A stretch of 64,000 nt of DNA from Acidobacteriota bacterium (GTDB lineage: Bacteria; Acidobacteriota; Terriglobia; 2-12-FULL-54-10), in the NCBI GenBank assembly GCA_009691245.1, contig SHUM01000012.1:1-64000 (forward strand), in the 5' to 3' direction. Every line of letters starts with the position of its first letter. The stretch's first letter is position 1. A model generated the notes under the pieces. That model had not been told where the DNA came from. It worked only from the letters and a program-made list of their open reading frames with translations, and ran no database searches. Shown piece after piece: positions 314 to 30,674 of the stretch. The position numbers and the translations under genes were made by a program.

Positions 314-1843
314 ATGCGGGATTTGCGGACTTGGCTGGCGGAAGTGGAAGCGATGGGCGAGCTGGCCACCATCAAGAAGAAGATGGACTGGAACGAGGAG
401 ACCTCGGCGCTGAACTATATTGTCGGGCAGCGCGAGGGCGCGCCCGCGCTGCTGTTTGAGAATATCAAGGACGCGCAGCCCGGCTTCCGCACCCTGCACA
501 ATCTCTTCGGCACCAGCAAGGAGCGCATCGCCACGGCCTTTGGATTTCCGACGGGCAAGTCGGTGGCCGAGCTGACCGACATGCTGCGCAAGAATTTTCG
601 CCGCAAGATTCCGCCCAAGGTGATCGACGCCAGCGCAGCGGCGGTGAATGAGAACATCAAGATGGGCGCCGATGCCGACATCACCATCTTCCCCGCGCCC
701 AAGATGTGGCCGCTCGATGGCGGCCGCTACCTCGGCACGTGGGATGTCTTCCTCACACGCGATCTGGAGGACGGCCACATTAATCTCGGGACTTATCGGC
801 AAATGGTGAAGTCGGCGCGCGAGCTGTTCGTCTATTGGTCGCCGGGCAAGGACGCGCGCCTGATGGCCGAGCGCTATTGGGCCAAGGGCCTGACCTTCCC
901 CGTGGCCACCGCTTACGGCACCGATCCGCTGCTGTTCACCGTGGGCTGCCAGACGCTGCCCAAAACCGAGTCCGAGTACGACTACGCCGGCGGACTGCGC
1001 AACGAGGCGATTGAAGTTTTCAAGAGCGACGTTACCGGGCTGCTGCTGCCGGCCTCCGCCGAGATCATCATCGAGGGCGAGATGCGCCCCGGCAATGAGG
1101 GCTTGGAAGGACCGTTCGGCGAGTTCACCGGCTACTACGGTCGGCCCGAGGCGCGCACTCCGATCATCGACGTGAAGTGCGTGCGCTACCGCAATAATCC
1201 CATCCTCACCTGCGCGCTGATGGCCGACTACCCGGCCTGCGAGCAGAGCCTGCTGTTCGCCGTGGCCCGCTCGGCGCGCATCTGGACCGACCTCGAACAA
1301 GTCGGCGTGCCGGGCATCAAGGGTGTCTATGCGTTCCCGGAAGCGGCGGGCGGATTCGGCGCGACGGCCATCTCCATCGAGCAGCGCTACGCGGGTCACG
1401 CCTCGCAAGTTGCCGCGCTGGCGGCGCAGGTGCCCAGCGGCGCGTATTACACCAAGTTCATCATCGTGGTGGATGACGACATCGACTGCACGGACATTCA
1501 TCAAGTGATGTGGGCCATGTCCACGCGCTGCGATCCGGAGACCGACCTCGACGTGCTGCGCTCAACCTGGTCGACGTATCTTGATCCCACCAAGAATCCG
1601 CCGGAAGAGCGGCCCTGGGGCTCGAAAGTGCTCATCAACGCGACCAAGGAGCACAAGTACCTGAAGGTCTTCGCCAAGCGCAACCGGATACGCAAAGAAG
1701 TCTACGACAAGATCGTAAGTGAGTGGAGTGAGTTCGGCTTCAACTTCGCCCCGCCCGTGATCCGCAACTTCGAGGAAGACAAGTCACTCGACTTCGGCCA
1801 GTACAAAGTGGCCGGCAAGAGCGAGCACCCGGAAGGGATGTAG
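314..1843 (+). CDS. UbiD-family prenyl-FMN-dependent decarboxylase
   Basis: A 509-aa protein of the UbiD family, which reversibly decarboxylates aromatic or unsaturated acids in the cytoplasm using prenylated FMN. The hallmark EGPFGE motif is at residues 265-270; its two Glu align with the catalytic Glu pair of fungal Fdc1. The NLGTYRQM segment near residue 160 supplies the expected Arg. The length is usual for the family. The ATG is preceded by GGGGGA (about 304-309). It is the first gene of a locus with secreted amidohydrolases and TonB-dependent receptors, which suggests a catabolic role rather than ubiquinone synthesis. No ubiX-like prenyltransferase is visible in the window. The substrate is unknown. 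A hairpin (1844-1868) follows the stop codon directly. Confidence 0.93.
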   Translation: MRDLRTWLAEVEAMGELATIKKKMDWNEETSALNYIVGQREGAPALLFENIKDAQPGFRTLHNLFGTSKERIATAFGFPTGKSVAELTDMLRKNFRRKIPPKVIDASAAAVNENIKMGADADITIFPAPKMWPLDGGRYLGTWDVFLTRDLEDGHINLGTYRQMVKSARELFVYWSPGKDARLMAERYWAKGLTFPVATAYGTDPLLFTVGCQTLPKTESEYDYAGGLRNEAIEVFKSDVTGLLLPASAEIIIEGEMRPGNEGLEGPFGEFTGYYGRPEARTPIIDVKCVRYRNNPILTCALMADYPACEQSLLFAVARSARIWTDLEQVGVPGIKGVYAFPEAAGGFGATAISIEQRYAGHASQVAALAAQVPSGAYYTKFIIVVDDDIDCTDIHQVMWAMSTRCDPETDLDVLRSTWSTYLDPTKNPPEERPWGSKVLINATKEHKYLKVFAKRNRIRKEVYDKIVSEWSEFGFNFAPPVIRNFEEDKSLDFGQYKVAGKSEHPEGM

Positions 1844-1912
1844 CCACGGCACGATTTTAGTGCCGTGGGCTTTTCGCCCGCTGGAACCCACGGCACAAAA
1901 AGGATGCCGTGG
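1844..1912. repeat. two consecutive hairpins after the UbiD gene
   Basis: Stem CCACGGCA/TGCCGTGG occurs at 1844-1851/1861-1868 and again at 1888-1895/1905-1912. The same 8-bp stem is used twice, so this looks like a dispersed palindromic repeat that may also protect or end the upstream mRNA. There is no clear U-tract. Confidence 0.5.
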
Positions 1913-1931
1913 ATACCTAGACAGGAAAACT

Positions 1932-2192
1932 ATGAAACGAGTAATCGTTTCGTTGATGATCGGCTTTCTTTTGCTGCTGGTCGGTGTCTGGTTCGCATTA
2001 ACGCAGCCGATCTTCACGGGAAACAGAATTCCGCGCGCTGTCACAGTAGTTCCGGATCGGCTGCGCATTCATGTTTACACTTTGGCGGAGGGGTTTGTAC
2101 CGCGGGATTACAGGCATCCGGAGAACCTTGATCGCGCCACCGTTCGGGATTTTGTCTTTGGAATTTGGGATTTGCTTGGGAATAGGGTTTAG
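1932..2192 (+). pseudogene. M28-type peptidase N-terminal remnant
   Basis: Eighty-six codons from the ATG at 1932 (GGA-rich site at 1923-1926). Residues 1-22 form a hydrophobic signal or anchor segment (MKRVIVSLMIGFLLLLVGVW). The following stretch, with LRIHVYTLAEGFVPRDY then HPENLDRA, matches the start of M28 zinc aminopeptidases (..L..HV..L...F.PRdy..peNLdrAA). Homology then stops: after LDRAT the reading frame runs into low-complexity sequence and a TAG. The catalytic zinc-binding domain, normally more than 200 residues, is absent, and the next 170 bp hold no continuation. I read this as a truncated gene. The family call is by motif recall and is moderate. Confidence 0.5.
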
Positions 2193-2365
2193 TACTTCGA
2201 GCATCTCTTCCCTGCCCCCGTGGATTGCCGCTTGACCAGCACGGACCCGGAAAGTAGAATGGCCACACTTGGCTTTCAGTGCAGAGGACCGCTGTTCGTG
2301 GGGCTTCCTGCGCTGCAAGACTCTCGGTATATAGACCATGAAGATATGATTTGAGGAGCGACTAC

Positions 2366-4270
2366 ATGCGCAAAAGGCTTGGCATCTGGATTTACTTCGT
2401 GGCAATCATGCTGGCGGCAATTCCGGGCGCTCGCATGACATATGCGCAGCAGCGGGTGTCGGTGCATCCCAAGCTGGTCGGTTATCCCGACATGATCGTC
2501 TACAACGGCAAGATTTACACCATGGACGACGAGTCCACCACCACGCGCGTGGGGACCATTGTGCAGGCCGTGGCCATTCGCGGTGATGAGTTTCTGGCCA
2601 TCGGCACCAACGCCGAGATGCTGGACCTGGCCGGGCCCAACACCGAGAAGATTGATCTCAAAGGGCAGGTGGTCATCCCCGGCATCGTCGATGCGCACAC
2701 CCACATCCACAACAACGAGTTGAACTATTGGGTGGGTCAGCATCCCGAGGTTCTCGACAAGTATTCGCGCAACTTCGTCATCCCCGGCAACAAGGACGCC
2801 GACATCACCAAGGGCATCGAGATCGTGCTCAAGGAGAGCATGTCCAACGCGCCCAAGGGCCAGTGGGCATTCCTGAACCTGAATGCCAATGAAGGCGGCT
2901 CGGGCATGGGGCGCGGCGTCGGCTATGTGCAGGACCACATCATGCCGCTGGCCAATCTGAACAAGCTGGCGCCCACCAATCCCGTCTTCGTCGCCGCGCA
3001 TCCGGCCTATATGATTAATGACGCGGCGCGCAAAGCCATCAAGGAACTCTACGGCTTCGAGCCGGTGGTGGGCATCGGCGAGGAGATGGACGAGAATCAG
3101 CAGGGCGGCCTGGTGCTCTACGCGCGCGCGCTGATCGTGGACGGCTACTTCAAGGACCACATCCCCGAGTTGGCGCAGATCATTGAGGACGGCCTCTTGA
3201 AGAACGCCGCGACCGGCATCACCACCTTTACCTCGCACATGATGGGCCTGCGCTTCATGGACGGCTATCGCCATCTGGATAACGCCGGGCGGCTCCCCGT
3301 GCGCTTCGCCTTCACGCACTACTACGGCTTCCAGGACAACCCTGACCCGGCGGCGTTCTACACGCGCCTGGGCGACTTCGCCGGCATGGGCTCGAAGTGG
3401 TTCTGGACCACCGGCGTCGGCGTGGGCAACATTGACGATGGCCCGCCCATGTTTTGCTCCACGATGGAGGCGCCGCAGGAAGTCAAGAAGCGCGAGTATT
3501 GCAAGAACGCGCCGGGGACGTCGCAGGGCGCGGGCATCTACGCCGCGATCCTGTCGCGCAACCGCGTGGCGCTCGGCCATGCCTACGCCGACAAGGGCGT
3601 CGATTACTTCATGGACGCCATCGAGCAGGGCATGAAGGAGCAGCCCTGGATGACGCTCGACTACGTGCGCTCGCGCCGCTTCTCGTCTGACCACTGCGGC
3701 TTCTATCCGCGGCCCGATCAGATTCCCCGCATGGCCAAGCTCGGCTACCTCATCAGTTGCGGCGGCAACGTGCTGGACCGCTCGTATCCGTGGCTGAAGC
3801 TCTACGGCCTGCAGCAATACGAGAACCGCATCTCGCCCATCAAGAGCCTGGTCGATGGCGGCGTGCGAGTAGTCTTCGAGAATGAAGCGGGCGTGGCCGG
3901 AACTAAAGGCCGGACATACTTCAATGATGTAGTCCCGCTCATCACCCGCAAGAATCACGCGGGCCAGATGGTCGCGCCGCAGGAGGCCGTGGACCGCGTG
4001 ATCCTGATGAAGATGATGTCGTCGTGGCCCAGCTACTACATGCTGCGCGAGGACAAGATTGGCACCATCGCGCCGGGCAAGTGGGCCGACTTCGTGGTGC
4101 TCAACAAGGATTACTTCTCCGTGCCGGTCGATGACATCGCCGGCATCTATCCCTGGATGACGGTCAGCGGCGGCAAGATTCGCTTCCTGCACAGTGAGTT
4201 CGCCCCGCAGATCGGCAAACAGAAGACCGGCATTGAAATCACGTTTGAGAACAGTTCGCGGTATGAATAA
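2366..4270 (+). CDS. secreted metal-dependent amidohydrolase (Amidohydro_3/YtcJ-like)
   Basis: A 634-aa amidohydrolase-superfamily protein. I place the start at ATG 2366 because GAGGAG (2353-2358) sits 7 nt upstream; an in-frame TTG at 2351 is less likely. Residues 1-29 are a signal peptide ending near YAQQ, so the enzyme acts outside the cytoplasm. A beta-sandwich strand region (YNGKIYTMDD) precedes the metal-binding HTHIH motif at residues 111-115. The C-terminus has the usual family ending (GTIAPGKWADFVVLNKDYF). Members of this family hydrolyse C-N bonds in cyclic or acyl amides, but the substrate here is unknown. It is closely similar to the genes at 5457 and 55551, so it belongs to a paralogous set. 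Confidence 0.9.
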   Translation: MRKRLGIWIYFVAIMLAAIPGARMTYAQQRVSVHPKLVGYPDMIVYNGKIYTMDDESTTTRVGTIVQAVAIRGDEFLAIGTNAEMLDLAGPNTEKIDLKGQVVIPGIVDAHTHIHNNELNYWVGQHPEVLDKYSRNFVIPGNKDADITKGIEIVLKESMSNAPKGQWAFLNLNANEGGSGMGRGVGYVQDHIMPLANLNKLAPTNPVFVAAHPAYMINDAARKAIKELYGFEPVVGIGEEMDENQQGGLVLYARALIVDGYFKDHIPELAQIIEDGLLKNAATGITTFTSHMMGLRFMDGYRHLDNAGRLPVRFAFTHYYGFQDNPDPAAFYTRLGDFAGMGSKWFWTTGVGVGNIDDGPPMFCSTMEAPQEVKKREYCKNAPGTSQGAGIYAAILSRNRVALGHAYADKGVDYFMDAIEQGMKEQPWMTLDYVRSRRFSSDHCGFYPRPDQIPRMAKLGYLISCGGNVLDRSYPWLKLYGLQQYENRISPIKSLVDGGVRVVFENEAGVAGTKGRTYFNDVVPLITRKNHAGQMVAPQEAVDRVILMKMMSSWPSYYMLREDKIGTIAPGKWADFVVLNKDYFSVPVDDIAGIYPWMTVSGGKIRFLHSEFAPQIGKQKTGIEITFENSSRYE

Positions 4271-4558
4271 GTTTCGTGATGCGTTCAGCCCCGGCAGGGG
4301 CGGCATATAGTAGCCCCGGGCGTAAGCCCGGAGTTTACGGAAGGAAAGAACACCCGGCCCCGGCAGGGGCGAAAGAACCTAAATAAGTTCTCTTTCGCGC
4401 CTGCCGGGGCTGGTGCCTCCTCCTTGCATCCGCCACCCACGGCTTGCGCCGTGGGCTACTATCTATCGCCCCTACGGGGCTCAGTTGGAACTCGTAATCT
4501 CTTCACCAGTTGTGAAAGGGGTTAGTGAGTGGCTGAGAGTTAATATGGGAGACATTAA
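4271..4558. repeat. intergenic block of GC-rich palindromes
   Basis: No gene is seen. The block holds a run of short palindromes: CCCCGGCAGGGGC-type units at 4287-4302 and 4357-4370, the latter paired with an inverted copy at 4391-4410 (18 of 20 positions match), a CCCACGGC/GCCGTGGG hairpin near 4437-4455, and a CGCCCCTACGGGGC unit near 4467-4480. Such clusters are typical of REP-like repeats. They separate the first amidohydrolase from the MBL gene. Confidence 0.6.
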
Positions 4559-5413
4559 ATGAAATCATTTATACGTACTCTCTTGATACTGGCGTCGGTC
4601 GCGCCGGCGCTGGTCAACTCTGCTTTCGCGCAGCAGCAGGCGCCACCGCTGACAATTGAGAAGGTGAAGGACAACCTTTATGTAATCGTCGGCAGCGGCG
4701 GCAACGTAGGCGCGCTGGTAACCCGGGAAGGCGTAATTCTGATTGATGACAAGTTCGAGCCGAACTATGATGAGATCATGGAGAAGCTGAGGAGCGTAAC
4801 CAGCCAGCCGGTGAAGTACGTCATCAACACTCACTACCATGCCGATCACTCGGGCGGCAACGTGAAGTTTCTGCCCTCGGCCGAGGTTATCTCCACGCTG
4901 AACGCGCGGAAGAATATCCTCGATCATAAGCAGCCGAACGCCCCGGCGAATCTTGCGCCGGCGCGCATCGTGTTCACCGAAGAGACCTCCGTGTTTCTCG
5001 GCGGCATGGAGGTTCGCGCGCGGCATTTCGGACGCGGCCACACCAATGGCGACGCAGTGATCTACTTCCCCGAGCTGCGCACCATCCACACCGGCGATTT
5101 GATGTCCGGAACAACGCCGCTGATTGACTACAACGGCGGCGGCAGCGTGGTCGAGTGGACTCGCACGCTGGACGCAGTTCTCCAGATGGACTTCGAGACC
5201 GTGATCCCCGGCCACGGCCCGGTCAACACCAAGGCCGGACTCAAATCCTATCGCGACAATATCGAGAAGCTGCGCAACCGTGTGAGCGGACTGATCCGCG
5301 AAGGCAAGTCCCAGGAGGAGATTGGCAAGGTCTTGATGGCCGAGTTTGGCTGGCAGCCCAATAGCCTCCAGATGGAGTGGAGCTTGCCCGGTTTTTTCCA
5401 GGAATTGAAATAG
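4559..5413 (+). CDS. secreted metallo-beta-lactamase-fold hydrolase
   Basis: A 284-aa MBL-fold protein with a signal peptide (residues 1-24, cleavage near AFAQQ). All metal-binding motifs are present: HYHADH at residues 92-97, His161 in GRGHTNGD, Asp180 in HTGDL and His219 in PGHG. This is the layout of periplasmic MBL hydrolases related to subclass B proteins and quinoprotein relay-like MBLs, which split ester, thioester or amide bonds. A beta-lactamase role cannot be claimed from the motifs. The start is ATG 4559 with GGGAG upstream. The next gene begins 43 nt after its stop with its own AGGAGG, so the two are probably cotranscribed. Both products are predicted to be exported. Confidence 0.88.
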   Translation: MKSFIRTLLILASVAPALVNSAFAQQQAPPLTIEKVKDNLYVIVGSGGNVGALVTREGVILIDDKFEPNYDEIMEKLRSVTSQPVKYVINTHYHADHSGGNVKFLPSAEVISTLNARKNILDHKQPNAPANLAPARIVFTEETSVFLGGMEVRARHFGRGHTNGDAVIYFPELRTIHTGDLMSGTTPLIDYNGGGSVVEWTRTLDAVLQMDFETVIPGHGPVNTKAGLKSYRDNIEKLRNRVSGLIREGKSQEEIGKVLMAEFGWQPNSLQMEWSLPGFFQELK

Positions 5414-5456
5414 CAATTTTTATTCGCAAACAGCAAAGGTTCTCAGGAGGATGGCG

Positions 5457-7355
5457 ATGAAACAGATTATCCGATTTTCACTTTTGTCAATGGTCGTCGC
5501 GCTGACGCTGGCCGCTGCCTTCGCGCAGCAGCGGGCCTCGGTGCCCACGGCGATCATCTCCTACCCGGAGATGATTCTGCACAACGGCAAGATTGTCACC
5601 ATGGACAACGTGCAGATGAACACGGAGCTGGGCACCATTGCGCAGGCCGTGGCCATCCGCGACCGCAAGATTCAGGCCATCGGCTCGAACGCTGACATAC
5701 TGGCGTATGCCGGGCCGAATACGCAGAAGATTGACTTGAAGGGACGCACGGTGATTCCCGGCATTGTTGACTCACACACTCACATCCACAATAACGAAGT
5801 GGCCTACTGGGTGGAGCATCATCCCAAGGAACTGGCGACCATGGCGCGCAACTTTTCGGTCGGCGGCGAGACCAACGCCGACATCAAGCGCGGCATCGAG
5901 CTGGTGCTGAAGGAGCGCATGGCGGACGCCGAGCCAGGGATCTGGGCGGTGCTGACGCTCCCCACCAACGATCCCAAGAATCCCGGCTCGGGCACCGGCC
6001 AGGGTGTGAAGTTCGTGCAGAAGCGCGAGATGACCGCCAAGGATCTGAACGTGCTCGCGCCGGAGAATCCCGTACTGCTGGCGGCGCATCCGGCCTACAT
6101 GATGAATGAGGCGGGCAAGAAGTATATGGAGAAGCTCTACGGCTTCTACCCGCCGATGGAAGTGGCCGATGACACCGGCTTCGGCGAACTGACCGAATAC
6201 AGTCGCGCGCTGATGGTGGACGGCTACTTCAAATCGCACCCCGACACGCTGGCCGAGATCGTGGAGTCGGGCCTGCTGAAGAACGCCGCCGTGGGCATCA
6301 CCTCATTCGCCTCGCACATGATGGGCCTGCAGTTCCTGAACGCCTATCAGAAGCTGGTGCGCGAAGACCGCATGCCGATCCGCTTTGCCTACACGCATTA
6401 CTTCGGCTTCCAGAACAATCCCGACCCGGCGGCATTCTACATGCGCCTGGGCGACATGGCCGGGCTCGGCAATGACTACTTCTGGTCGGCGGGCGTGGGC
6501 ATGGGCAACGTGGACTCCGGTCCGCCGATGTTCTGCTCGACGATGGAAGCGCCGCCCGAACTGAAAGAGCGCGAGTGGTGCCGCAACACGCCGGGCAACC
6601 CCTACTGGAAGGGCATGGTCGCGGCGATCATGTCGCGCAGCCGCGTGGCACTGGGCCACTCCTATGGCGATAAGTCGGTGGACTACTTCATGGACGCGCT
6701 CGAAAACGCCTCGAAGGTTGACCCGACGATCACGCTCGACTACATCCGCTCGCGCCGGTTTTCGTCGGACCACTGCGGTTTCTATCCGCGCCCGGAGCAG
6801 ATTCCGCGCATGGCCAAGCTGGGCATGTACATCTCCTGCGGCGGCAACGTGCTGTCGCGGAGCTATCCGTGGCTGGAGATGTACGGACTGAAATACGCCA
6901 ACTGGATTTCCCCGGTGAAGAGCCTGCTCAAGGCCGGGGTGAAGACCACCTTTGAGAACGAAGCCGGCGTGGACGGCTTGGTGAGCGAGACCTACTTCAA
7001 GGAAGCCTATCCACTGATCACCCGCAAGAACGAATACGGCGCGCTGGTGGCTCCCGAAGAGGCCGTGGACCGTATCACGCTGATGAAGATGATGACCAGT
7101 TGGCCGGCGGAGTACATGCTGCGCGAGAAGCAGATCGGCACGCTCGAACCCGGCAAGCTGGCCGACCTGCTGGTGCTGAACGCCGACTACTTCACCGTCG
7201 CCGAGGACAAGATTCCAACCGTCTATCCGGTCATGACCGTGGTGGGCGGCAAGATTCTGGTGGTGCGCAACGAAGCGGCGCGCGACCTGGGCCTGCAGGC
7301 GAAGGGCCCGCAGATCGAGTTCAAGTTCTCCGGCGGACGCTACGCCGCGCAGTAA
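5457..7355 (+). CDS. secreted metal-dependent amidohydrolase (Amidohydro_3/YtcJ-like), second copy
   Basis: A 632-aa paralogue of the gene at 2366, with the same signal peptide type (ending FAQQ), metal motif HTHIH at residues 107-111 and C-terminal GTLEPGKLADLLVLNADYF. Start choice: AGGAGG ends at 5450, directly against ATG 5451, so the ATG at 5457 (6-nt spacing) is better. Long blocks around YSRALMVDGYFK and SRRFSSDHCGFYPRP are shared with the first copy, showing a fairly recent duplication with the MBL gene in between. It probably acts in the periplasm on a related substrate. It could equally be a broad-specificity C-N hydrolase; nothing in the sequence fixes the substrate. Confidence 0.9.
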   Translation: MKQIIRFSLLSMVVALTLAAAFAQQRASVPTAIISYPEMILHNGKIVTMDNVQMNTELGTIAQAVAIRDRKIQAIGSNADILAYAGPNTQKIDLKGRTVIPGIVDSHTHIHNNEVAYWVEHHPKELATMARNFSVGGETNADIKRGIELVLKERMADAEPGIWAVLTLPTNDPKNPGSGTGQGVKFVQKREMTAKDLNVLAPENPVLLAAHPAYMMNEAGKKYMEKLYGFYPPMEVADDTGFGELTEYSRALMVDGYFKSHPDTLAEIVESGLLKNAAVGITSFASHMMGLQFLNAYQKLVREDRMPIRFAYTHYFGFQNNPDPAAFYMRLGDMAGLGNDYFWSAGVGMGNVDSGPPMFCSTMEAPPELKEREWCRNTPGNPYWKGMVAAIMSRSRVALGHSYGDKSVDYFMDALENASKVDPTITLDYIRSRRFSSDHCGFYPRPEQIPRMAKLGMYISCGGNVLSRSYPWLEMYGLKYANWISPVKSLLKAGVKTTFENEAGVDGLVSETYFKEAYPLITRKNEYGALVAPEEAVDRITLMKMMTSWPAEYMLREKQIGTLEPGKLADLLVLNADYFTVAEDKIPTVYPVMTVVGGKILVVRNEAARDLGLQAKGPQIEFKFSGGRYAAQ

Positions 7356-7459
7356 GTTGCGGGTGTCATTCCAAGCCGCTTTTTTCAACAAGCCCTCAAC
7401 AAGCTCTTGGTTCGGCTGTTGAGCTTGTACAGGATTCGATAAATAGATCAATAAACTTC

Positions 7460-7523
7460 TTGCCAACTCCATCTGGTTTTGAATTACTATGGGTGCAGCT
7501 TGGTCAGTCAACTGAACGGGGCA
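7460..7523 (+). promoter_or_regulatory. promoter-like block upstream of first tandem receptor
   Basis: TTGCCA (7460-7465) and TACTAT (7485-7490) are separated by 19 bp. They are followed by CAGCTTGGTCAG (7496-7507) and GGGGCA (7518-7523). The same parts in the same order and spacing occur at 10960-11025 before the next receptor, which supports function. A 19-bp spacer is longer than the sigma-70 norm. The 5-prime leader would be about 100 nt. Confidence 0.55.
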
Positions 7524-7597
7524 ATTCCGAATCGAACAGGCCGATGCGCTACCGCCAAATCAGCGGGGCGCACCTGCGGCGCTATGGGAGGGAAAAA

Positions 7598-10500
7598 ATG
7601 AATTTGAAACAGAATCTTGCCGTGATGATGCTGGCGCTGGCCATGCCGGCGATGATCTTCGCGCAGGCCAACAGCAGCGCGCTCAGCGGCGTGGTCCGCG
7701 ATCCCAGCGCGGCCGTAATTACCGGCGCGGCCATCACCGTAACCAACTCGGAGACCGGCCTGACGCGCACGCGCGAGTCTGACCCGGCGGGCCGCTACCG
7801 CGTCGGCGAACTCCCACCCGGCACTTATCAGATCACCGTATCCATGGCGGGCTTCAATCGCGAGACGCGCAAGGACCTGGTGTTGCAAGTAGGCCAGGAA
7901 CTCGGCCTGAGCTTCACTCTGCAAATCGGCGCGCTGGAACAGGAAATTGTAGTTACTAGCGAAGCGCCGGTGGTGGAGACCACCACGGCCTCGGTGGCGC
8001 GCGTGGTCAGCCAGGAGCAGCTCCGCGAGCTGCCGCTGAACGGCCGCAGCTTCACCGACCTGATTACGCTGGACACCATGGCCTCCACGCCGGGCAATCA
8101 GGCCAAGGGCACGGCGAACTACGGCAACTCGGCCCAGCTCACCGTGGCCGGCGCGCGGTCGGACTCGAACAGCTTCACGCTGGACGGCACCGACATCAAC
8201 GGCACGGCCAACGGATCGCCAGGCAGCGCCGCCGGCGTGCAACTTGGCGTCGATACCATCCGCGAATTTCAGGTGATCACCGCCAACGCCAAGGCCGAGT
8301 ACGGGCGCAACTCCGGCGCCATCGTCAACGCCGTAACGCGCTCGGGCACCAACGATATGCACGGCACGCTGTTCGAGTTCCTGCGCAACAAGACGCTGGA
8401 CGCCCGCCGCTTCATCGACCTGCCCACGGCGCAGAACCCCAACGGGTCGCTGCCGCCCTTCAAGCGCAACCAATTCGGCGGCTCCCTGGGCGGGCGCATC
8501 AAACAGGACAAATCGTTCTACTTCCTAGCCTATGAAGGTCTGCGCCAGCGCCTGACCGAGACGCAGGTCTATCGCGTGCCCACCGCCGACGGCCGCCGCG
8601 GCATCGGCGCCGGAGTTCTGAATACCGTAACCAACACTCGACCCGATGTAGTGGTTCATCCCTCGATCGTCCCTTACGTGAATCTGTGGCCGTCGCCCAG
8701 CCTGGGCAGCCGCAGCTACGGCGACGGCACGGCGGACTACTTCGGTCCGGTGGTCCAGCCGACCAACGAAAACTTCGGCTCGGCGCGCTTTGACCACACC
8801 TACTCGGAGAAGGATTTCCTCTTCGCGCGCTACACCACCAGCCGCGGCGACAGCGTGATCCCGTCGCAACTGCTCTCGGACAGCTCGTTCCTCTCCGCCA
8901 ATCAATTCATCACCGCGCAGTACGACCGCATCATCAGCTCCACAATGCTGAACATGTTCCGCGCCGGATTCAACCGTTCATTCAACGACATCTCGCCCGG
9001 CCAGGCGCCCGGCGGCGAGAATCTCGGCTTCACGCCCGGCCAGCCCATCGGCTCTCTTGGGCCAACGCCGCTCTCGACGCTGGGCCCGGCCGGCATTGTG
9101 CGACTTTATCAGGTGCAAAACTCCTTCCAGTTCGACGACAACCTGACCATCAATCGCGGCGCGCACACCTGGAAGTTCGGCACCGCGGTGCAGCGCTTTC
9201 AATGGAACTCCGATCAGCCGGCCTTTGTGCAGGGCAGCATCACCTTCAACAGCTTTACGAACTTTCTGCTGGCCGGCCCGACCGGCACCGGCGCGACGTT
9301 CCTGCTGCCCGAATCCAGCACCTACCGCCACATCCGCACCACGATGTATGGGTTCTACGGGCAGGATGACTGGCGCGTCAGCCCCCGGCTGACCATCAAT
9401 TACGGCCTGCGCTGGGAGTTCACCACCGGCCTGAAGGAGACCGACGACCTGGTCTCCTACATTCTCGATCCGCAGACGTCGCGACTCGAGGACGTCAAGG
9501 TCGGCGAGCTGTGGGACAACAAGATCAAGAATTTCCAGCCGCGCCTGGGCCTCAACTGGTCGCTCGACGAGGAGTCGAAGACGGTGCTCAGCGGCGGCCT
9601 CGGCATCTTCCACAATCAGGTGCTGCACAACTCGATGGTCTCGTTCCGCGCGCAGCAGCCGTTTTATTTCCGCGGCTCGTTCGCCGGCATCAACTCGGTG
9701 GGCGTGTTCCCGAATGTGCGCGCCATGATTGCCACCACGGCCAACGGCGCCGACCAGCCCACCGCGGCGGCATTTCGCGTTACGCGAACGTTTGACCATG
9801 ACAACTTCAAGACGCCGACCTACTATCGCTACAATATGACCATCCAGCGCGCGCTGCCCGGCCAGCTGGTGGCGCGCGTGGGCTATGTCGGCTCCTTCTC
9901 GAGGCATCTGGCGCGGCGGCAGGGATTGAACACCTTCCCGCAACCCATCAAGCAGGCCGACGGCTCGCTGTTCTTCCCCTGCGCCACGGCCTCGGCGGTT
10001 TGCTCGACGCCGGCGCCGCAGTTCATTAATCCGAACTTCTCGCAGATCGAGTGGATGTCGTCGGACGCTAATTCGAGTTACAACGCGCTCACCGCCAACC
10101 TGCAACAGAAGTTCCGCAACGGCATGTCCTTCCAGGCGAGCTACACCTACTCGAAGTGCATAGACGACGCCTCGTCCTCCGAAACCAATTACTCGACCGC
10201 GGCCACGCTGGGCCAGTGGTCGCCGGACCGCACCCTGGAGCGGGCGCGCTGCAACTTCAATATCCCGCACGCCTTCGTGGCCAACGGCCTGTACGAGTTG
10301 CCGTTCGGGTCTGGGCGCAGCTTCATGAACTCGGGCGGCGTGGCCGACTGGGTGCTGGGCAACTGGCAAATTGGCGGCGTGCTGACCATTCAGCAAGGCC
10401 TGCCCTTCACCGTTACCACCAATTTCCGCGCGCCGGGCTTCACCGGCTTCGCCGCAAACCGGCCCAACACCTCGCCCAACGCGGACGCCACGAAAGCTAC

Positions 10501-10816
10501 CCAGGAGCCGTTCGGGACGCGTGAGCAGTTCTTCGACACCTCCATTTTCAGCAATCCCGCCGGCGGCACGCTGGGCACGGCCGGGCGCAACTACCTGCTG
10601 GGAGCGCCGCTGGTGCAGTTGAACTTCACCCTGAGCAAGTCGTTCTCGATCTCCGAGCAGACCAAGCTGCAGTTCCGCAGCGAGTACTTCAACGCATTGA
10701 ACCAGACCAACTTGTCCTTCCCGGCAACCAACATCAACGTCGCCGGCGCAGGGCGGATCACCGACACAAGCACCAAGGCGCGGCAGATCCAGTTGGCGCT
10801 GAAGCTGACGTTCTAG
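7598..10816 (+). CDS. TonB-dependent receptor, Oar-like, tandem copy 1
   Basis: A 1,072-aa outer-membrane transporter. The frame is open from 7100, but the start is ATG 7598, preceded by GGGAGGG (7586-7592) and followed by a signal peptide (ending IFAQ near residue 23). Order: signal, carboxypeptidase-regulatory-like beta domain (about 28-110, with SGVVRDPSAAVITGA), plug with the RELPLNGRSF signature (about 145-155), and a large beta-barrel ending in a C-terminal Phe (LALKLTF). Family members import large substrates using TonB energy. Its neighbour at 11103 is a clear tandem duplicate. It lies downstream of secreted hydrolases, so it may import their products. A terminator follows at 10843. 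Confidence 0.93.
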   Translation: MNLKQNLAVMMLALAMPAMIFAQANSSALSGVVRDPSAAVITGAAITVTNSETGLTRTRESDPAGRYRVGELPPGTYQITVSMAGFNRETRKDLVLQVGQELGLSFTLQIGALEQEIVVTSEAPVVETTTASVARVVSQEQLRELPLNGRSFTDLITLDTMASTPGNQAKGTANYGNSAQLTVAGARSDSNSFTLDGTDINGTANGSPGSAAGVQLGVDTIREFQVITANAKAEYGRNSGAIVNAVTRSGTNDMHGTLFEFLRNKTLDARRFIDLPTAQNPNGSLPPFKRNQFGGSLGGRIKQDKSFYFLAYEGLRQRLTETQVYRVPTADGRRGIGAGVLNTVTNTRPDVVVHPSIVPYVNLWPSPSLGSRSYGDGTADYFGPVVQPTNENFGSARFDHTYSEKDFLFARYTTSRGDSVIPSQLLSDSSFLSANQFITAQYDRIISSTMLNMFRAGFNRSFNDISPGQAPGGENLGFTPGQPIGSLGPTPLSTLGPAGIVRLYQVQNSFQFDDNLTINRGAHTWKFGTAVQRFQWNSDQPAFVQGSITFNSFTNFLLAGPTGTGATFLLPESSTYRHIRTTMYGFYGQDDWRVSPRLTINYGLRWEFTTGLKETDDLVSYILDPQTSRLEDVKVGELWDNKIKNFQPRLGLNWSLDEESKTVLSGGLGIFHNQVLHNSMVSFRAQQPFYFRGSFAGINSVGVFPNVRAMIATTANGADQPTAAAFRVTRTFDHDNFKTPTYYRYNMTIQRALPGQLVARVGYVGSFSRHLARRQGLNTFPQPIKQADGSLFFPCATASAVCSTPAPQFINPNFSQIEWMSSDANSSYNALTANLQQKFRNGMSFQASYTYSKCIDDASSSETNYSTAATLGQWSPDRTLERARCNFNIPHAFVANGLYELPFGSGRSFMNSGGVADWVLGNWQIGGVLTIQQGLPFTVTTNFRAPGFTGFAANRPNTSPNADATKATQEPFGTREQFFDTSIFSNPAGGTLGTAGRNYLLGAPLVQLNFTLSKSFSISEQTKLQFRSEYFNALNQTNLSFPATNINVAGAGRITDTSTKARQIQLALKLTF

Positions 10817-10842
10817 TCACTCGACCATTGCATTGAAATTGC

Positions 10843-10877
10843 GAGGCTCCGCCGCTGGCGGAGCCTCTTTTTATTTT
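10843..10877 (+). terminator. Rho-independent terminator after first tandem receptor
   Basis: A perfect 11-bp stem (10843-10853/10857-10867) with a 3-nt loop is followed by TTTTTATTTT. It starts 26 nt after the stop codon, so the two receptors are probably transcribed separately. Confidence 0.9.
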
Positions 10878-10959
10878 GCCCTGTCGTTCGCTATAGCCGG
10901 CCCTCGGCCGCGAGGTCGTCACGAGGATTGAACGCCCCGGCAGGCCCCCCTGATTGTTC

Positions 10960-11025
10960 TTGCCTATTCCACCCCTGATTGAATTATTATGGGGTAACAG
11001 CTTGGTCAGCTAATTTGATGGGGCA
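10960..11025 (+). promoter_or_regulatory. promoter-like block upstream of second tandem receptor
   Basis: TTGCCT (10960-10965), 19-bp spacer, TATTAT (10985-10990), then CAGCTTGGTCAG (10998-11009) and GGGGCA (11020-11025). This is the counterpart of the block at 7460-7523; spacing is kept although intervening bases differ. The conserved box downstream of the -10-like element could be an operator or a leader RNA element. Confidence 0.55.
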
Positions 11026-11102
11026 TTTGCAGTTGCAATGGGCCGTAGCGCTTCCCGCGGAGTGAGCGGCGGAAAGCCTCGGCATTTACTTGGAGGAAAA
11101 TG

Positions 11103-14100
11103 ATGAAATTGAAACAGATTCTTGCACTGCTGATGCTGGCGCTGGCGATACCAGCCATGATCTTTGCGCAGTCCAATAGCAGCGCGCTAAGCGGCGTGGT
11201 TCGCGATCCCAGCTCGGCGGTGATAACTGGCGCGGAGATAACCGTATCCAATATGGACACCGGCCTAACGCGCACGGCCACATCGAACGCCTCGGGCGTC
11301 TATCGCGTCGGCGAGCTCAATCCCGGCAGCTATCAGATCACCGCTTCGATGACGGGCTTCTCGCGCGAGACGCGCAAGGACGTTACGCTGCTGGTGGGCC
11401 AGGAACTCTCGGTGAACTTCGCGCTGCAAGTCGGCGCAGTCGAGCAGGAGATCATCATCACCGGAGAAGCGCCGGTGGTGGAGACCACCATCTCGTCGGT
11501 GGCCTCCAACGTAACCCAGGAACAACTCCGCGAGCTGCCGCTGAACGGTCGCGCGTTTACCGACCTGGTGACGCTGAACCCCGGCGCGGTTACGCCGCAC
11601 GTCGCGCAGGGCCGCGGCGCCAACTACGGCTTCGCCACCCAACTCTCGGTGGCCGGCGCGCGCACCGACTCGAACAGCTTCCGCCTCGACGGCACGGACA
11701 TGATGGACACCCGTAACATGAATCCCGGCAGCGCAGCCGGCGTGCAGCTGGGCGTGGATACGATTCGTGAGTTTCAGGTGATCACGGCGAACGGCAAGGC
11801 CGAGTACGGTCGCAACGCCGGCGCAGTCATCAACGCGGTCAGCCGCTCGGGCGAGAACACCATGCATGGCGCGCTGTTTCACTTTCTGCGCAACAACAAG
11901 CTGGACGCGCGGCGCTTTGAGAATCCCAAAGCCCTTCCGCCGTTCAAGCGCAACCAGTTTGGCGGCACCATCGGCGGCCCCATCGCGCGCGACAAGGCTT
12001 TCTACTTCTTCGGCTACGAGGGTCTCCGCCAGCGGCTGAACGAGTCGGCGGTTTATAACGTACCCACGGCGGACGGCAAGCGCGGAATCGGCGTCGGCCC
12101 CATCGTCAATGGGGCGCGCACCAATGTAGTGGTCGATCCCCGCATGGTTCCCTACATGAATCTCTACCCACTGCCCAATGGCCGCGATCTGGGCGACGGC
12201 ACAGCCCTGCTGGCTAACGATGCGAGCCGCCCCACAACTGAGAACTTTGGTTCGGGACGTGTAGACTACGCCCTATCGAGCAACGACTCGTTCTTCTCGC
12301 GCTACACCATCAGCCGGGCCGAGTCCAACTCCAACGGTAATCTTCTGTCCAAGCAGATCTCCACCACTTCGCGGCATCTGCTCACCATGCAGGAGGACCA
12401 CATCTTCGGCCCGTCCATGGTCAATACGCTGCGGCTCTCCTTCAATCGGTCGCTGGGCTTTTCCGCCCCGGGACAGGTGGAAGGCGGCGAGAGCCTGGGA
12501 TTCGCCGCCGGCGTGCCGTTGGGCGAGATGGGCGCGGGCTCCGCAGTGTCCAACATCGGCCCGATGAGCATCGGCATCGTGGACGATAAGCAGAATAGCT
12601 TTCAGTATGAGGACACGGTTTCCTATACCCGTGGGAATCACAATATGAAGTTTGGCGCGCTGGCCCAGAGGTTCCAATGGAACACGGACAACCCGGCGTT
12701 CTGGCAGGGCCAGTTCTCCTTCACGGACTTGCCCACAATGCTCCGACTCGGGAACGCCAGCGCCACCTACCGGCTGCCCCGTTCCAGCACCAATCGCGGA
12801 CTGCGCACATGGCTGATGGGTTTCTTCGGCCAGACCGACTACCGTGTAAGTCCAAGCCTGACCCTGAACGTGGGCCTGCGCTGGGAGTTCACCACCGGCG
12901 TCAGCGAGGTCCACAACAATATCTCCTACCTCGCCAATGGCCCGATCACCTCGACCCCCAATGACATCAAGCTCGGCAAGCTGTGGAACAATCACATCAA
13001 GAATTTCGAGCCGCGCTTCGGCTTCAACTGGGCGTTGGGCGCCAACCAGACCACCTCGCTCAGCGGCGGCATCGGCATCTACCACAATCAGATTTTGCAT
13101 AACAGCTTCGTCTCGTTCCGCGATCAGCTCCCGTTCAACTTCCGGGCCACCGCGACGAATGTTTCCTTCGCCGCCTTCCCGAATATTGAACAGGTGGTGT
13201 TGCAGTCCGGCCAGAACTTCAACGCCAGCCGGCATTTTGACCTTGATAATTTCAAGACGCCCACCTACTACCGCGCCAATTTGACCATCCAGCATCAGCT
13301 TCCCGGCGAGCTGGTGGTGAAGCTGGGATTTGTCGGCTCGCTCGCCCGGCACCTGGCGCGCCGCCAGTTGCTGAATACCTTCCCGAATCCGGTGGCGCGC
13401 GCCGACGGCAGCTTGTTCTTCGGCTGCGGACCGGCGGTATCGGCTACCTGCGCCAGCCCCATCCCGCAGGTGATCAATCCAAACTTCGGGCGCATCGAGT
13501 GGATGTCCAGCGACGTGAATTCATCCTACAATTCGATGGTTACTTCCATCCAGAAGCGTTTTAGCCGCGGACTTACCTTCCAGGCTAATTACACCTATTC
13601 GAAATCGATTGATGACTACTCGCAATCGGAGACCAACTACGCCGGCGAGACCGGAGCCAATGGCCAGTTCGGGCCGGACCGTGTACTGGACCGTGCGCGC
13701 TCCACGTTCAATATTCCTCACGTGTTCGTCGCCAACGGCGTCTACGAGCTGCCCCTCGGCCATGGGAAAGCCCACCTGAACTCGGGTGGCGTGGTCAACG
13801 CCATTGTGGGCGGCTGGCAGCTTGGAGGCATTCTCACCCTGCAGCAGGGACTGCCGTTCACGGTTGGATCGTTAATCGCCGACGCGGGTTACACGTTCCG
13901 CGCCAATCGCCCGAACATGAATTCCAGTGTCGACATCAATACCGTTACCAGCGGCACCTCGGCGGGATGTGTCGTGGCGGGAACCACCACCCCGATCGCC
14001 GCCGGCACGCCGATTGGAACACGCGATCGCTATTTCGATCCCTGTGTATTCGGAGCGCCGGCAGCCGGCACCATCGGCAACGTCACGCGCAACACGCTCA

Positions 14101-14339
14101 TTGGACCCGATCTGCGCAACGTGAACTTCAACCTCGGCAAGACCTTCAACATCACGGAAGGTATGCGGTTGCAGTTCCGCAGCGAGTTCTTCAATCTGTT
14201 CAACCGCGTGCAGATGCGCAATCCCGCCGCACGCGTATTCTCCAACCGCACGGGCGTTTCCGCCTCCGCCGGTCTGATCACCGAATCGCTCGACGCCAGC
14301 GCGCGTCAGATTCAGTTTGGTCTGAAGCTGACGTTCTAA
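11103..14339 (+). CDS. TonB-dependent receptor, Oar-like, tandem copy 2
   Basis: A 1,078-aa outer-membrane transporter with the same plan as its neighbour: signal peptide (ending IFAQ), regulatory beta domain with SGVVRDPSSAVITGA, plug signature RELPLNGRAF, and a barrel ending in Phe (FGLKLTF). I choose ATG 11103, 6 nt after GGAGG (11092-11096); ATG 11100 is adjacent and in frame. Identity to copy 1 is high in the N-terminal 200 residues and the barrel ends and lower in the loops. That is the pattern expected when substrate-contacting loops diverge. It has its own promoter-like block and its own terminator. Confidence 0.93.
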   Translation: MKLKQILALLMLALAIPAMIFAQSNSSALSGVVRDPSSAVITGAEITVSNMDTGLTRTATSNASGVYRVGELNPGSYQITASMTGFSRETRKDVTLLVGQELSVNFALQVGAVEQEIIITGEAPVVETTISSVASNVTQEQLRELPLNGRAFTDLVTLNPGAVTPHVAQGRGANYGFATQLSVAGARTDSNSFRLDGTDMMDTRNMNPGSAAGVQLGVDTIREFQVITANGKAEYGRNAGAVINAVSRSGENTMHGALFHFLRNNKLDARRFENPKALPPFKRNQFGGTIGGPIARDKAFYFFGYEGLRQRLNESAVYNVPTADGKRGIGVGPIVNGARTNVVVDPRMVPYMNLYPLPNGRDLGDGTALLANDASRPTTENFGSGRVDYALSSNDSFFSRYTISRAESNSNGNLLSKQISTTSRHLLTMQEDHIFGPSMVNTLRLSFNRSLGFSAPGQVEGGESLGFAAGVPLGEMGAGSAVSNIGPMSIGIVDDKQNSFQYEDTVSYTRGNHNMKFGALAQRFQWNTDNPAFWQGQFSFTDLPTMLRLGNASATYRLPRSSTNRGLRTWLMGFFGQTDYRVSPSLTLNVGLRWEFTTGVSEVHNNISYLANGPITSTPNDIKLGKLWNNHIKNFEPRFGFNWALGANQTTSLSGGIGIYHNQILHNSFVSFRDQLPFNFRATATNVSFAAFPNIEQVVLQSGQNFNASRHFDLDNFKTPTYYRANLTIQHQLPGELVVKLGFVGSLARHLARRQLLNTFPNPVARADGSLFFGCGPAVSATCASPIPQVINPNFGRIEWMSSDVNSSYNSMVTSIQKRFSRGLTFQANYTYSKSIDDYSQSETNYAGETGANGQFGPDRVLDRARSTFNIPHVFVANGVYELPLGHGKAHLNSGGVVNAIVGGWQLGGILTLQQGLPFTVGSLIADAGYTFRANRPNMNSSVDINTVTSGTSAGCVVAGTTTPIAAGTPIGTRDRYFDPCVFGAPAAGTIGNVTRNTLIGPDLRNVNFNLGKTFNITEGMRLQFRSEFFNLFNRVQMRNPAARVFSNRTGVSASAGLITESLDASARQIQFGLKLTF

Positions 14340-24784: not shown

Positions 24785-27229
24785 GTGTTCCGAACTCTAG
24801 TGAGATATCTGAGCGTGATTCTGGCAGCAGCCACGCCTATGCTGGCACAGGTGCCGTTCGCCGCGCCGCACGGAGCCCCCGCAGATATCGTCGCGCGGTA
24901 CTGCGTCGGTTGCCACAACGATAAGCTCAAGACCGGCGGTCTCACTCTACAGACGATCCGCATGGATCGTCCCGCGGATAATGCCCCAGTTTGGGAGAGC
25001 GTCCTGCGCAAACTCAGCGCACGCGCCATGCCGCCCGCCGCTGCGCCCAGGCCCGACGAGGCTGCCTACAATACCTTGACTGAGTATCTGGAAACAGAAC
25101 TGGATCGCGCCGCGACCACCGCGCCCAATCCCGGACGCACCGCCGCCGCGCACCGGCTGAATCGCACCGAGTACACCAACGCGGTGCGCGACTTGCTGGC
25201 GGTCGAGATCGATTCGTCTACGCTGCTGCCCGCCGATGACTCGAGCCGCGGCTTCGACAATAATGCCGACATCCTTTCCGTCTCGCCGCTGCTGCTGGAA
25301 AAATACATGGTCGCAGCGCGGCGCATCAGCACGCTGGCCGTGGGCGACGCCGACGTCAAGACCTTCACCGCCACCTACGACGTCCCGCGCCGCCTGACGC
25401 AGGACGACCGCATGAGCGAAGACCTGCCCTTCGGCTCGCGCGGCGGCCTGGCCGTGCGCCACTTTTTCCCCGTCGATGGCGAGTACTCGATCAAAGTCCG
25501 CCTGATGAAGAACAATGACAACTACATTCGCGGCCTCGGCGACCGCCATCAATTGGACGTGCGCATGGACGGCGCGCGCGTGAAGCTGTTCAGCGTGGGC
25601 GGCGAATCGGTGGGCCGCTCCGGGCCGGTCTACGCCTTCATCAACAAGGACTACAAGGGCGACGCCGAGCAGGAGAACTACGAACTCACCGCCGACGCGC
25701 ACCTGCAAGTCCGCTTCCCGGCGACGGCGGGCACGCACACGATCGCAGTGGCCTTCCTGAATCAATTGACCGAGTACGAAGGCGAGTTGATGCCGCGGCA
25801 AAACTTCGACGAGATGTACGCTTACAAAGGCGGCGATCCCGCAGTGGACACCGTCGCCATCACCGGCCCGCTCAGCACGAAGGGTTTGGGACTCACTGAA
25901 AGCCGCCAGCGAATATTCATTTGTAACCAGAAGCCAGTCGATCCGGCGGAGAGCCGGCTCAGCATCCCGCCAGCTACCTGCGCGAAGCAGATACTCTCCG
26001 CGCTGGCGCGGCGCGCCTATCGCCGTCCCGTGCAGGATGCCGACCTGAAGGCGTTGCTGAAATTTCATGAAGTCGGGAGCAAACTGGGCGGATTCGAGGA
26101 AGGCATCCGCACTGCGATACAAGGGCTGCTGGTCAGCCCGGAGTTTCTGTTTCGCGTGGAGGCCGATCCGGTGGGCGTGAAGCCCAGAGCGGTCTATCGC
26201 AGCAGCGATGTCGCGCTGGCCTCGCGCCTCTCGTTCTTCCTGTGGTCCAGCATTCCCGATGATGAGTTGCTCACGCTGGCCGAGCAGAACAAGTTGAGCG
26301 ATCCGCAAGTGCTGGACGCTCAGACGCGGCGCATGTTGGCCGACCCGCGCTCCAGCGCGCTGATGGACAACTTCGCCTCGCAGTGGCTGGGCTTGCGCCG
26401 TCTGGCCGCCGTCTCGCCGGACCCGCTGGCCTTCCCTGACTTCGACGACAATCTGCGCCGCGCCATGCTCCAGGAAACTTTAATGCTGGCCGAGACCATT
26501 GCGCGCGAAGACCGCGGCGTGCTGGACTTCCTCACCGCCGACTATACGTTTGTGAACGAGCGCCTGGCGCGGCACTACGGCATCCCCAACATTTACGGCA
26601 GCGATTTCCAGCGCGTGGCCCTCAAGGGAACGACGCAGGACGGCACACGCGGCGGGCTGCTCGGACAGGGCAGCATCCTGACCGTTACGTCGTATGAGAA
26701 TCGCACTTCGCCCACGCTGCGCGGCAAGTGGGTGCTCGACAATTTGCTGGGCACGCCGCCGCCACCGCCGCCTCCCAACGTCCCCGCGCTGGTGGAAGAG
26801 AGCGCCGGCAATGGCAAGCAGCGCAGTATGCGCGAGCGGCTGGAGCAGCATCGCGTCAATCCCGTTTGCAGCACCTGCCATTCGCGCATGGACCCGCTGG
26901 GATTTGCGCTCGATAATTATGACGCCGTCGGCCGCTGGCGCACGCATGAAGGCACCACGCCTGTCGACGCCTCCGGCGCGCTGCCGGACGGCGCGAAGTT
27001 CAACGGCGCCGGCGAACTGAAGAAAGTAATGCTGGGACGTTCCGAGCAATTTGTTTCCACATTTACGGAAAAGCTGATGATGTACGCGCTGGGACGCGGC
27101 GTGGAATATTACGATCAGCCCGCTGTGCGCGGCATCCTGCGCGACGCGGCGGCGCAGAATTACAAATGGTCGGCGCTTGTTAGCGGCGTGGTGCGCAGCG
27201 CGCCGTTTCAGTCGCGCGTCGCGCGGTAG
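24785..27229 (+). CDS. DUF1592-family protein with planctomycete-type cytochrome c domain
   Basis: An 814-aa exported protein. GTG 24785 is chosen because GGAGG (24771-24775) lies 9 nt upstream and a signal peptide follows (ending MLAQ). Residues 34-50 carry one heme site, CVGCH (C40, C43, H44). The remaining domains fit the order DUF1587, DUF1595, DUF1592, DUF1588, DUF1585. A second CSTCH with the signature MDPLGFALDNYD is at 695-711, and the end reads LMMYALGRGVEYYD. The family is common in Planctomycetes and Acidobacteria and is always suspected of extracellular polymer or redox chemistry, but its reaction is unproven. The partner DUF1552 gene follows after a family A palindrome. Confidence 0.92.
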   Translation: MFRTLVRYLSVILAAATPMLAQVPFAAPHGAPADIVARYCVGCHNDKLKTGGLTLQTIRMDRPADNAPVWESVLRKLSARAMPPAAAPRPDEAAYNTLTEYLETELDRAATTAPNPGRTAAAHRLNRTEYTNAVRDLLAVEIDSSTLLPADDSSRGFDNNADILSVSPLLLEKYMVAARRISTLAVGDADVKTFTATYDVPRRLTQDDRMSEDLPFGSRGGLAVRHFFPVDGEYSIKVRLMKNNDNYIRGLGDRHQLDVRMDGARVKLFSVGGESVGRSGPVYAFINKDYKGDAEQENYELTADAHLQVRFPATAGTHTIAVAFLNQLTEYEGELMPRQNFDEMYAYKGGDPAVDTVAITGPLSTKGLGLTESRQRIFICNQKPVDPAESRLSIPPATCAKQILSALARRAYRRPVQDADLKALLKFHEVGSKLGGFEEGIRTAIQGLLVSPEFLFRVEADPVGVKPRAVYRSSDVALASRLSFFLWSSIPDDELLTLAEQNKLSDPQVLDAQTRRMLADPRSSALMDNFASQWLGLRRLAAVSPDPLAFPDFDDNLRRAMLQETLMLAETIAREDRGVLDFLTADYTFVNERLARHYGIPNIYGSDFQRVALKGTTQDGTRGGLLGQGSILTVTSYENRTSPTLRGKWVLDNLLGTPPPPPPPNVPALVEESAGNGKQRSMRERLEQHRVNPVCSTCHSRMDPLGFALDNYDAVGRWRTHEGTTPVDASGALPDGAKFNGAGELKKVMLGRSEQFVSTFTEKLMMYALGRGVEYYDQPAVRGILRDAAAQNYKWSALVSGVVRSAPFQSRVAR

Positions 27230-27231
27230 TG

Positions 27232-27309
27232 ACAGTGCCTCGACCGTCAGGGAGCGGGGGTTGGTTCCAGGTGAGGCCAACCCTCGCTCCCTGACGGTCG
27301 AGGCACTGT
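27232..27309. repeat. family A long palindrome, copy 2
   Basis: Arms of 33 bp (27232-27264 and 27277-27309) are reverse complements with one mismatch and contain the CGACCGTCAGGGAGCG core. It starts 2 nt after the DUF1592 stop codon and may act as a terminator or mRNA-stabilising hairpin between the paired genes. Confidence 0.8.
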
Positions 27310-27335
27310 AAAAGAATGAGGAGGGCAAACGAGCC

Positions 27336-28709: not shown

Positions 28710-28731
28710 AAGATGGAGATGGAGTTTTTCT

Positions 28732-30566: not shown

Positions 30567-30652
30567 CCACAGAGACACGGAGGCACAGAGTTTAAGAAGG
30601 GTAAGTTTTTTTTACCCTCGTTCTTATCTCTGCGTCTCCGTGCCTCCGTGGC
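30566..30652. repeat. family C palindrome
   Basis: Left arm 30566-30590 (GCCACAGAGACACGGAGGC...) pairs imperfectly with right arm 30628-30652, with a T-rich centre at 30606-30613. It starts within the ankyrin gene's TAG and ends 22 nt before the cupin start. This motif class is widespread in bacterial intergenic regions. Confidence 0.65.
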
Positions 30653-30674
30653 AAGTCATTTTGAGGAGACGATC

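Follow-up and report, generated by a model that had tools for sequence, protein, structure and literature searches.

Do a UbiD-family decarboxylase, an exported amidohydrolase, and an Oar-type TonB-dependent receptor that stand together at two places on one acidobacterial contig belong to a single system? The original prediction took their recurrence as its main candidate for an undescribed system and offered as a workable model that an amide-linked aromatic compound is cleaved outside the cell, imported, and decarboxylated in the cytoplasm. The window, meaning the whole stretch of DNA analyzed, comprises bases 1 to 64,000 of contig C12 (65,858 bases) from a genome of 3.43 Mb in 96 contigs (G000). 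This genome carries 9 UbiD genes in 8 places, approximately 41 genes for Amidohydro_3 enzymes (PF07969; Am3), with weak Amidohydro_1-like matches set aside, and at least 65 genes for Oar-type receptors, which also cluster among themselves. The genomes compared include G001, from the sister species of the window's species; G003, G005, and G006, from the same family; and G147, from a different family. The nearest named relative found is "Acidobacteria bacterium isolate B32T1B5," and a contig scan with the Am3_2 sequence gave matches at only six loci, which belong to two MAGs named as Acidobacteria.

Gene content of locus A

Locus A is composed of UbiD1, Am3_1, a metallo-beta-lactamase-fold gene, Am3_2, OarA1, and OarA2, all in the same (forward) direction. 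UbiD1 (positions 314 to 1843) is a UbiD-family prFMN decarboxylase with PF01977 (2e-56), UbiD_N, and UbiD_C matches, a TIGR00148 score over the cut-off, and the motifs TYR and EGPFGE; it lacks a signal peptide and is predicted to be cytoplasmic. A strong hairpin on the forward strand (1844 to 1912; −41.2 kcal/mol; z, −6.4) lies directly 3' of UbiD1 and is a possible transcription boundary. The inverted repeat GGGCACGGTTAAAACCGTGCCC is found upstream of UbiD1 at positions 231 to 254, and CACGGCA arms like those of this repeat make up the hairpin behind the gene. A replacement scar lies at positions 1880 to 2130, according to blastn breakpoints, where 251 bp take the place of about 2.2 kb in G001. 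In the sister species, a gene of 665 codons with an HExxH motif, recognized by eye, and a Solibacter C-terminal domain (TIGR03437) separates UbiD1 (98% identical) from Am3_1; homology between the two genomes stops at position 1879 and restarts at 2131, with the 665-codon gene gone.

The exported enzymes Am3_1 (2363 to 4270; PF07969, 3.6e-33; N-terminal signal sequence and His ligands) and Am3_2 (5451 to 7355; PF07969, 1.5e-40) share 59% identity. They flank an exported metallo-beta-lactamase-fold hydrolase (4559 to 5413; PF00753, 1.4e-20; nearest PDB entries 8d2z and 6uxu), which the original prediction had left out. Two TonB-dependent Oar-type receptors complete the locus: OarA1 (7598 to 10816, with the start set by the gene caller; PF25183, 3.4e-189, together with CarboxypepD_reg and Plug) and OarA2 (11100 to 14339; PF25183, 3.1e-181). 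A terminator-like hairpin with an 11-bp stem and a T run lies between them on the forward strand (10843 to 10867), from a hairpin scan whose total was not above that of shuffled sequences.

Gene content of locus B

Locus B (38.8 to 57.5 kb) contains a run of co-directional genes with short gaps, retained in G001, that encodes an MFS transporter (42331 to 43689; PF07690, with TIGR00893 below its cut-off), UbiD2 (43739 to 45163; PF01977, 1.3e-62), UbiD3 (45182 to 46771; PF01977, 2.1e-62), a DUF2848 protein (46802 to 47491; PF11010, 1.6e-47), an HpaB-type flavin monooxygenase (47528 to 48979; PF11794/PF03241; PDB 2yyk), and a small cupin (Cupin_7; 49021 to 49371; PF12973, 3.4e-9), all on the forward strand. 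The closest structures to the HpaB-type protein are those of 4-hydroxyphenylacetate 3-hydroxylase. The MFS, DUF2848, HpaB, and cupin genes had not been included in the original prediction. Upstream, on the reverse strand, an Amidohydro_2 protein (37489 to 38499; PF04909, 2.8e-32; PDB 3ij6 and 4inf) is similar to decarboxylases, for example those of 5-carboxyvanillate and gamma-resorcylate, and a three-subunit molybdenum hydroxylase is encoded at 33457 to 37333. Taken together, locus B reads as a cluster for the breakdown of an aromatic or heteroaromatic acid. UbiD2 and UbiD3 (43739 to 46771) have adjacent counterparts in G147 (contig C22; L129, 7576 to 11421) and G285 (contig C40; L151, 13 to 3444). 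The retention of the pair across three families points to a decarboxylase of two subunits.

The receptor OarB1 (38817 to 42113, forward; PF25183, 1.7e-169) precedes this run, and OarB2 (49727 to 53068, reverse; PF25183, 5.9e-168) follows it. Downstream of OarB2, G001 has an intact Am3 gene of 645 codons (L045, 12076 to 14010), of which G000 retains a stub with the first codons (49368 to 49610, reverse), 1.87 kb being absent at a junction at 49383 to 49387. The intact exported enzyme of the locus, Am3_3 (55500 to 57512, forward; PF07969, 1.6e-28), is separated from OarB2 by two unrelated genes.

Several parts of this region have counterparts elsewhere. The molybdenum hydroxylase set (30648 to 37333) is also found in the distant family, on contig C33 of G147 (L136, 4350 to 8105; large subunit, 65%; small cupin-like protein, 67%), there also near UbiD, Amidohydro_2, and Oar genes. 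On contig C126 of G269 (L147, 9420 to 11831), UbiD, a relative of the cupin at 49021 to 49371, and DUF2848 stand together without Oar or Am3. A triad of DUF1592 (PSD), DUF1552 (HXXSHH), and ankyrin-repeat genes at 24785 to 30566 is seen again in L061 (10814 to 16177) and L066 (3 to 11012); it occurs at least three times in G000, two occurrences adjoining Oar and Am3.

Catalytic sites

The catalytic Arg and Glu-x4-Glu network of UbiD enzymes (Arg173, Glu277, and Glu282 in Fdc1) has been described (PMC5818171). In UbiD1, UbiD2, and UbiD3, the UbiD_N, Rift-related, and UbiD_C domains all score over the curated cut-offs, and none of the function-specific UbiD models reaches its cut-off. The motifs TYR/VYR and EGPFGE/EGSFGE can be read in the three sequences, and we take them to represent the Arg173, Glu277, and Glu282 network of Fdc1. 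Since these are motifs of active enzymes and UbiX is encoded in the same genome (contig C6, 29940; TIGR00421, 229 bits against a cut-off of 108.9), the proposed cytoplasmic decarboxylation is plausible as judged from sequence.

The nearest solved relatives of Am3 by profile are 3icj and 3igh, with near full-length alignment. The metal ligands of 82 Am3 proteins from several genomes were scored by alignment to 3icj, and signal-like N termini were recognized in 61 of the 82 by a crude test. The four metal-binding His residues (HxH plus two further) are found in 77 to 81 of the proteins, including all three window copies, and the bridging Lys is found in none. The strand-8 Asp position holds Asp in 34 proteins and Glu in 16, including Am3_1 and Am3_2, and is unaligned in 26. 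The HxH motif is also lost in a few copies (L064, L067, and L083); with the Lys absent in all, some copies may be noncatalytic. In Bilophila, bile acids conjugated with taurine are cleaved by secreted PF07969 enzymes whose metal site comprises six residues, all of them essential (PMC13081902). The missing bridging Lys and the exchange of Asp for Glu in Am3_1 and Am3_2 set the Am3 site apart from those of characterized members; the site would be mononuclear, and amide hydrolase activity is possible. All four window receptors combine CarboxypepD_reg, Plug, and the PF25183 barrel.

The three genes against the genomic background

Co-occurrence of the triple was assessed for G000 with six radii and for G000, G147, and G269 with five. 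Given the copy numbers of the three families in G000, 13 to 16% of random positions in this genome have both Am3 and Oar within 15 kb. At this radius the triple occurs at 3 of the 8 UbiD loci, with a P value of 0.07 for interpolated contig sizes and 0.11 for an upper-bound background. A nominal P value of 0.04 is reached by the first method at 12 kb and at this radius only; at 10 kb P is 0.2 to 0.5, and at 5 kb none of the 8 UbiD loci of G000 shows the triple. With one genome and several radii, the triple is judged nonsignificant. Am3 alone lies within 5 kb of 2 of the 8 loci (P = 0.24), not above chance, and UbiD loci overall show no enrichment in G000 or G269. UbiD contigs of G192 and G285 carry 11 Am3 genes per 159 kb, compared to 4 per 121 kb in control contigs (P = 0.15).

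The components of the two loci are also only distantly related to each other: identities are 32 to 35% between UbiD1 and UbiD2 or UbiD3, 32 to 35% between the OarA and OarB receptors, and 43 to 45% between Am3_1 or Am3_2 and Am3_3. They belong to different subfamilies and are not mutual closest relatives. A UbiD-specific Oar clade was sought and none was found, and the literature searches gave nothing relevant on UbiD with amidohydrolases in Acidobacteriota. The presence of the three gene kinds at both loci, with their coordinates, is thus borne out by the Pfam matches, while their recurrence as a unit and the expected enrichment of UbiD neighborhoods in Am3 and Oar do not rise above chance in the genome itself. 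A fixed three-gene unit probably does not exist, and recurrence as a three-gene system is not shown.

UbiD1 in related species

Neither Am3 nor Oar adjoins the orthologs of UbiD1 in G003 (77%) and G006 (76%). The neighbor of close UbiD1 relatives there is a CoA ligase or an anion transporter of the DASS type, both identified by reading the sequences. None of the 12 UbiD loci of G003, G005, and G006 has Am3 beside it, several of the contigs being short (5 to 9 kb). Conversely, the Am3-Am3-Oar block of locus A is present in G006 without UbiD (53 to 72% identity, with Am3 and Oar reaching 69 to 72%). UbiD1 adjoins Am3 in the genus of the window only.

This restriction could be taken for a genus-specific operon in which UbiD1 was recently recruited to function with Am3_1, the metallo-beta-lactamase-fold hydrolase, Am3_2, and OarA1. 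Orientation and neighbors are alike in G000 and G001, and in both species a UbiD1 paralog on contig C2 (65% identity) is accompanied by two Am3 genes no more than 6 kb away. We nevertheless regard such an operon as very unlikely: the hairpin and the replaced gene separate UbiD1 from Am3_1, the sister species has its 665-codon gene at this place, and the proximity of UbiD loci to Am3 within 5 kb matches the background given above. The same interruption between UbiD1 and Am3_1, the UbiD1 orthologs standing without Am3 or Oar, the G006 block without UbiD, and the deleted Am3 next to OarB2 speak against UbiD as a fixed member of the proposed system. The last point weighs against a fixed triple at locus B in particular, as Am3 has been deleted there while UbiD2, UbiD3, and HpaB stay.

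The receptor-amidohydrolase pair

The pairing of Am3 with Oar is far stronger. In G000, 17 of the 41 Am3 genes have an Oar gene at a distance of 3 kb or less, compared to 3.6 expected (binomial P, ∼2e-8), and in the unrelated family, G147 shows 11 of 21 against 1.7 expected (P = 1.5e-7). The excess is absent from G269, a genome with 9 Oar genes only. In many pairs, Am3 follows Oar on the same strand after a gap of 25 to 267 bp, an arrangement found in several genera of the family. The divergences of Oar and Am3 in 11 pairs are uncorrelated (Mantel r = 0.03; P = 0.41), a test with little power at 55 to 75% divergence; the pairs therefore seem to have formed repeatedly and not to have been copied as cassettes. 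A co-duplicating cassette as the origin of the pairs is disfavored by the lack of a Mantel signal.

The missing co-duplication would also suit the absence of any functional link, with three large families gathering in generic flexible-genome regions and the Oar-Am3 excess reflecting regional clustering. All three families are strongly expanded, and Oar genes cluster with one another. The many repeats of same-strand tandems with such short gaps and the return of the excess in an unrelated family speak against this explanation, which we consider very unlikely. The part of the original prediction that holds Am3 to be exported and the receptors to be of the TonB type agrees with the predictions made here, and their genes show strong linkage in two unrelated families of Acidobacteriota. 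The receptor-amidohydrolase pair is the reproducible part. Searches on Amidohydro_3 with TonB receptors gave nothing relevant, and the pair appears undescribed in the literature covered, with most subscription papers lying outside it.

The UbiD3 lineage and the G147 genome

A closer association of UbiD with the two other families is seen in part of the UbiD tree. A search of 297 genomes for UbiD3 gave relatives with 45 to 47% identity in families f58 and f69. Of the 6 lineages of the UbiD3 clade that could be evaluated, from families f1, f58, and f69, 5 have Oar or Am3 no more than 3.3 kb away (P = 0.0007). This value is post hoc, as clade and distance were picked after the data had been seen, and it uses assumed backgrounds for G192 and G006; at 2 kb the count is 3 of 6 (P = 0.04). 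On contig C43 of G147, Am3, Oar, and a UbiD3 relative point in the same direction and are spaced 366 and 122 bp apart, and contig C21 carries a co-directional array of UbiD, flavoproteins, Oar, Am3, SDR, and aldehyde dehydrogenase genes. Overall, 5 of the 12 UbiD loci of G147 have an Oar gene within 3 kb (P = 0.0017) and 8 within 10 kb (P = 0.0001). Most of the receptors next to UbiD in this genome come from an expansion that is specific to G147 and not related to OarB1. Another family has, in two of its species, an Am3 gene some 150 bp behind UbiD in the same orientation (G269, contig C119, L140; G285, contig C162, L152).

These neighborhoods raise the question of a narrower three-part system of the UbiD3, perhaps also the UbiD2, lineage. 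Here, Am3 would cleave a conjugate outside the cytoplasm, Oar would import the aromatic acid, and the UbiD2/UbiD3 pair would decarboxylate it before hydroxylation by HpaB. The proximity in 5 of 6 lineages of three families, the contiguous genes and the array of G147 with its UbiD-Oar excess, and the ability of secreted PF07969 enzymes to cleave amide conjugates extracellularly (metalloBSH; PMC13081902) are in favor of it. The post hoc choice of clade and distance with the weaker result at 2 kb, the deletion of the locus B Am3 in the window's species, the genome-specific Oars of G147 without OarB1 relatives, and the unenriched UbiD loci of G000 and G269 as a whole stand against it, and we consider this reading unlikely. 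Quite unlikely, too, is the form in which exported Am3, with a nonstandard metal site that lacks the bridging Lys, and Oar constitute a capture-and-cleave module of UbiD-rich Acidobacteriota that feeds aromatic acids to a two-gene UbiD2/UbiD3 decarboxylase, the genes being contiguous in G147 and dispersed in the genus of the window. We read the neighborhoods as a real tendency, in some lineages, for receptor genes to become established next to clusters for aromatic acids, and not as proof of one system.

Two probable adjacent functions

The two loci thus probably hold two separate things side by side, Oar-Am3 pairs and UbiD genes of aromatic-acid metabolism, and no fixed triple. They would meet at both loci mainly because the genome is crowded with three expanded families. 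From the families, signal-like N termini, and strong linkage of the pair, we infer its processing: the Oar receptor most likely would bind and import an organic ligand, which the exported Am3 may cleave at the cell surface or in the periplasm, by analogy with receptor-plus-hydrolase scavenging loci. The UbiD genes would serve the cytoplasmic breakdown of aromatic or heteroaromatic acids. At locus B, uptake by the MFS transporter would be followed by decarboxylation by UbiD2/UbiD3, hydroxylation by HpaB, and later steps involving the cupin and the DUF2848 protein; UbiD1 would be an isolated relative. The products of both parts may feed each other.

As a favored Oar neighbor in two unrelated families, Am3 offers a concrete enzyme to assay toward ligands of the at least 65 Oars. 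A striking combination of neighboring genes can come about when each of three families has expanded many-fold, so neighborhood claims in such genomes need a genome-wide background.

Comparison with known systems

In the PUL/SusC-type loci of Bacteroidota, a TonB receptor stands beside an exported hydrolase, with many paralogous copies per genome. The Oar-Am3 pairs likewise combine a TonB receptor with an exported hydrolase in many paralogous copies. In contrast to these loci, the pairs consist of two genes, with receptors of the Oar/PF25183 type, an Amidohydro_3 enzyme in place of a glycosidase, and no SusD-like partner among the genes annotated here. The metalloBSH enzymes of Bilophila (PMC13081902) resemble Am3 in the Amidohydro_3 domain, export, several tandem paralogs, and four His ligands. 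Am3 differs from them by the absence of the bridging Lys (82 of 82), the Glu of Am3_1 and Am3_2 at the strand-8 Asp position, the lack of a long C-terminal domain, and a context unrelated to bile salts. The best solved relatives, the YtcJ-like amidohydrolases 3icj and 3igh, are themselves uncharacterized, and the Lys ligand is absent from Am3.

The window UbiDs show a full three-domain match with the reversible decarboxylases of the UbiD family (7pda, phenolic acid decarboxylase, phenylphosphate carboxylase subunits, and PA0254/HudA). The catalytic Arg and Glu/Glu motifs and UbiX are common to both, and the window UbiDs stay below the function-specific cut-offs. With the HpaB aromatic clusters (4-hydroxyphenylacetate 3-monooxygenase), locus B has in common the HpaB fold, an MFS transporter, and decarboxylases in one co-directional run. 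In contrast to those clusters, its HpaB scores below the equivalog cut-off, no flavin reductase gene is seen in the run, and two UbiDs and the DUF2848 protein are added.
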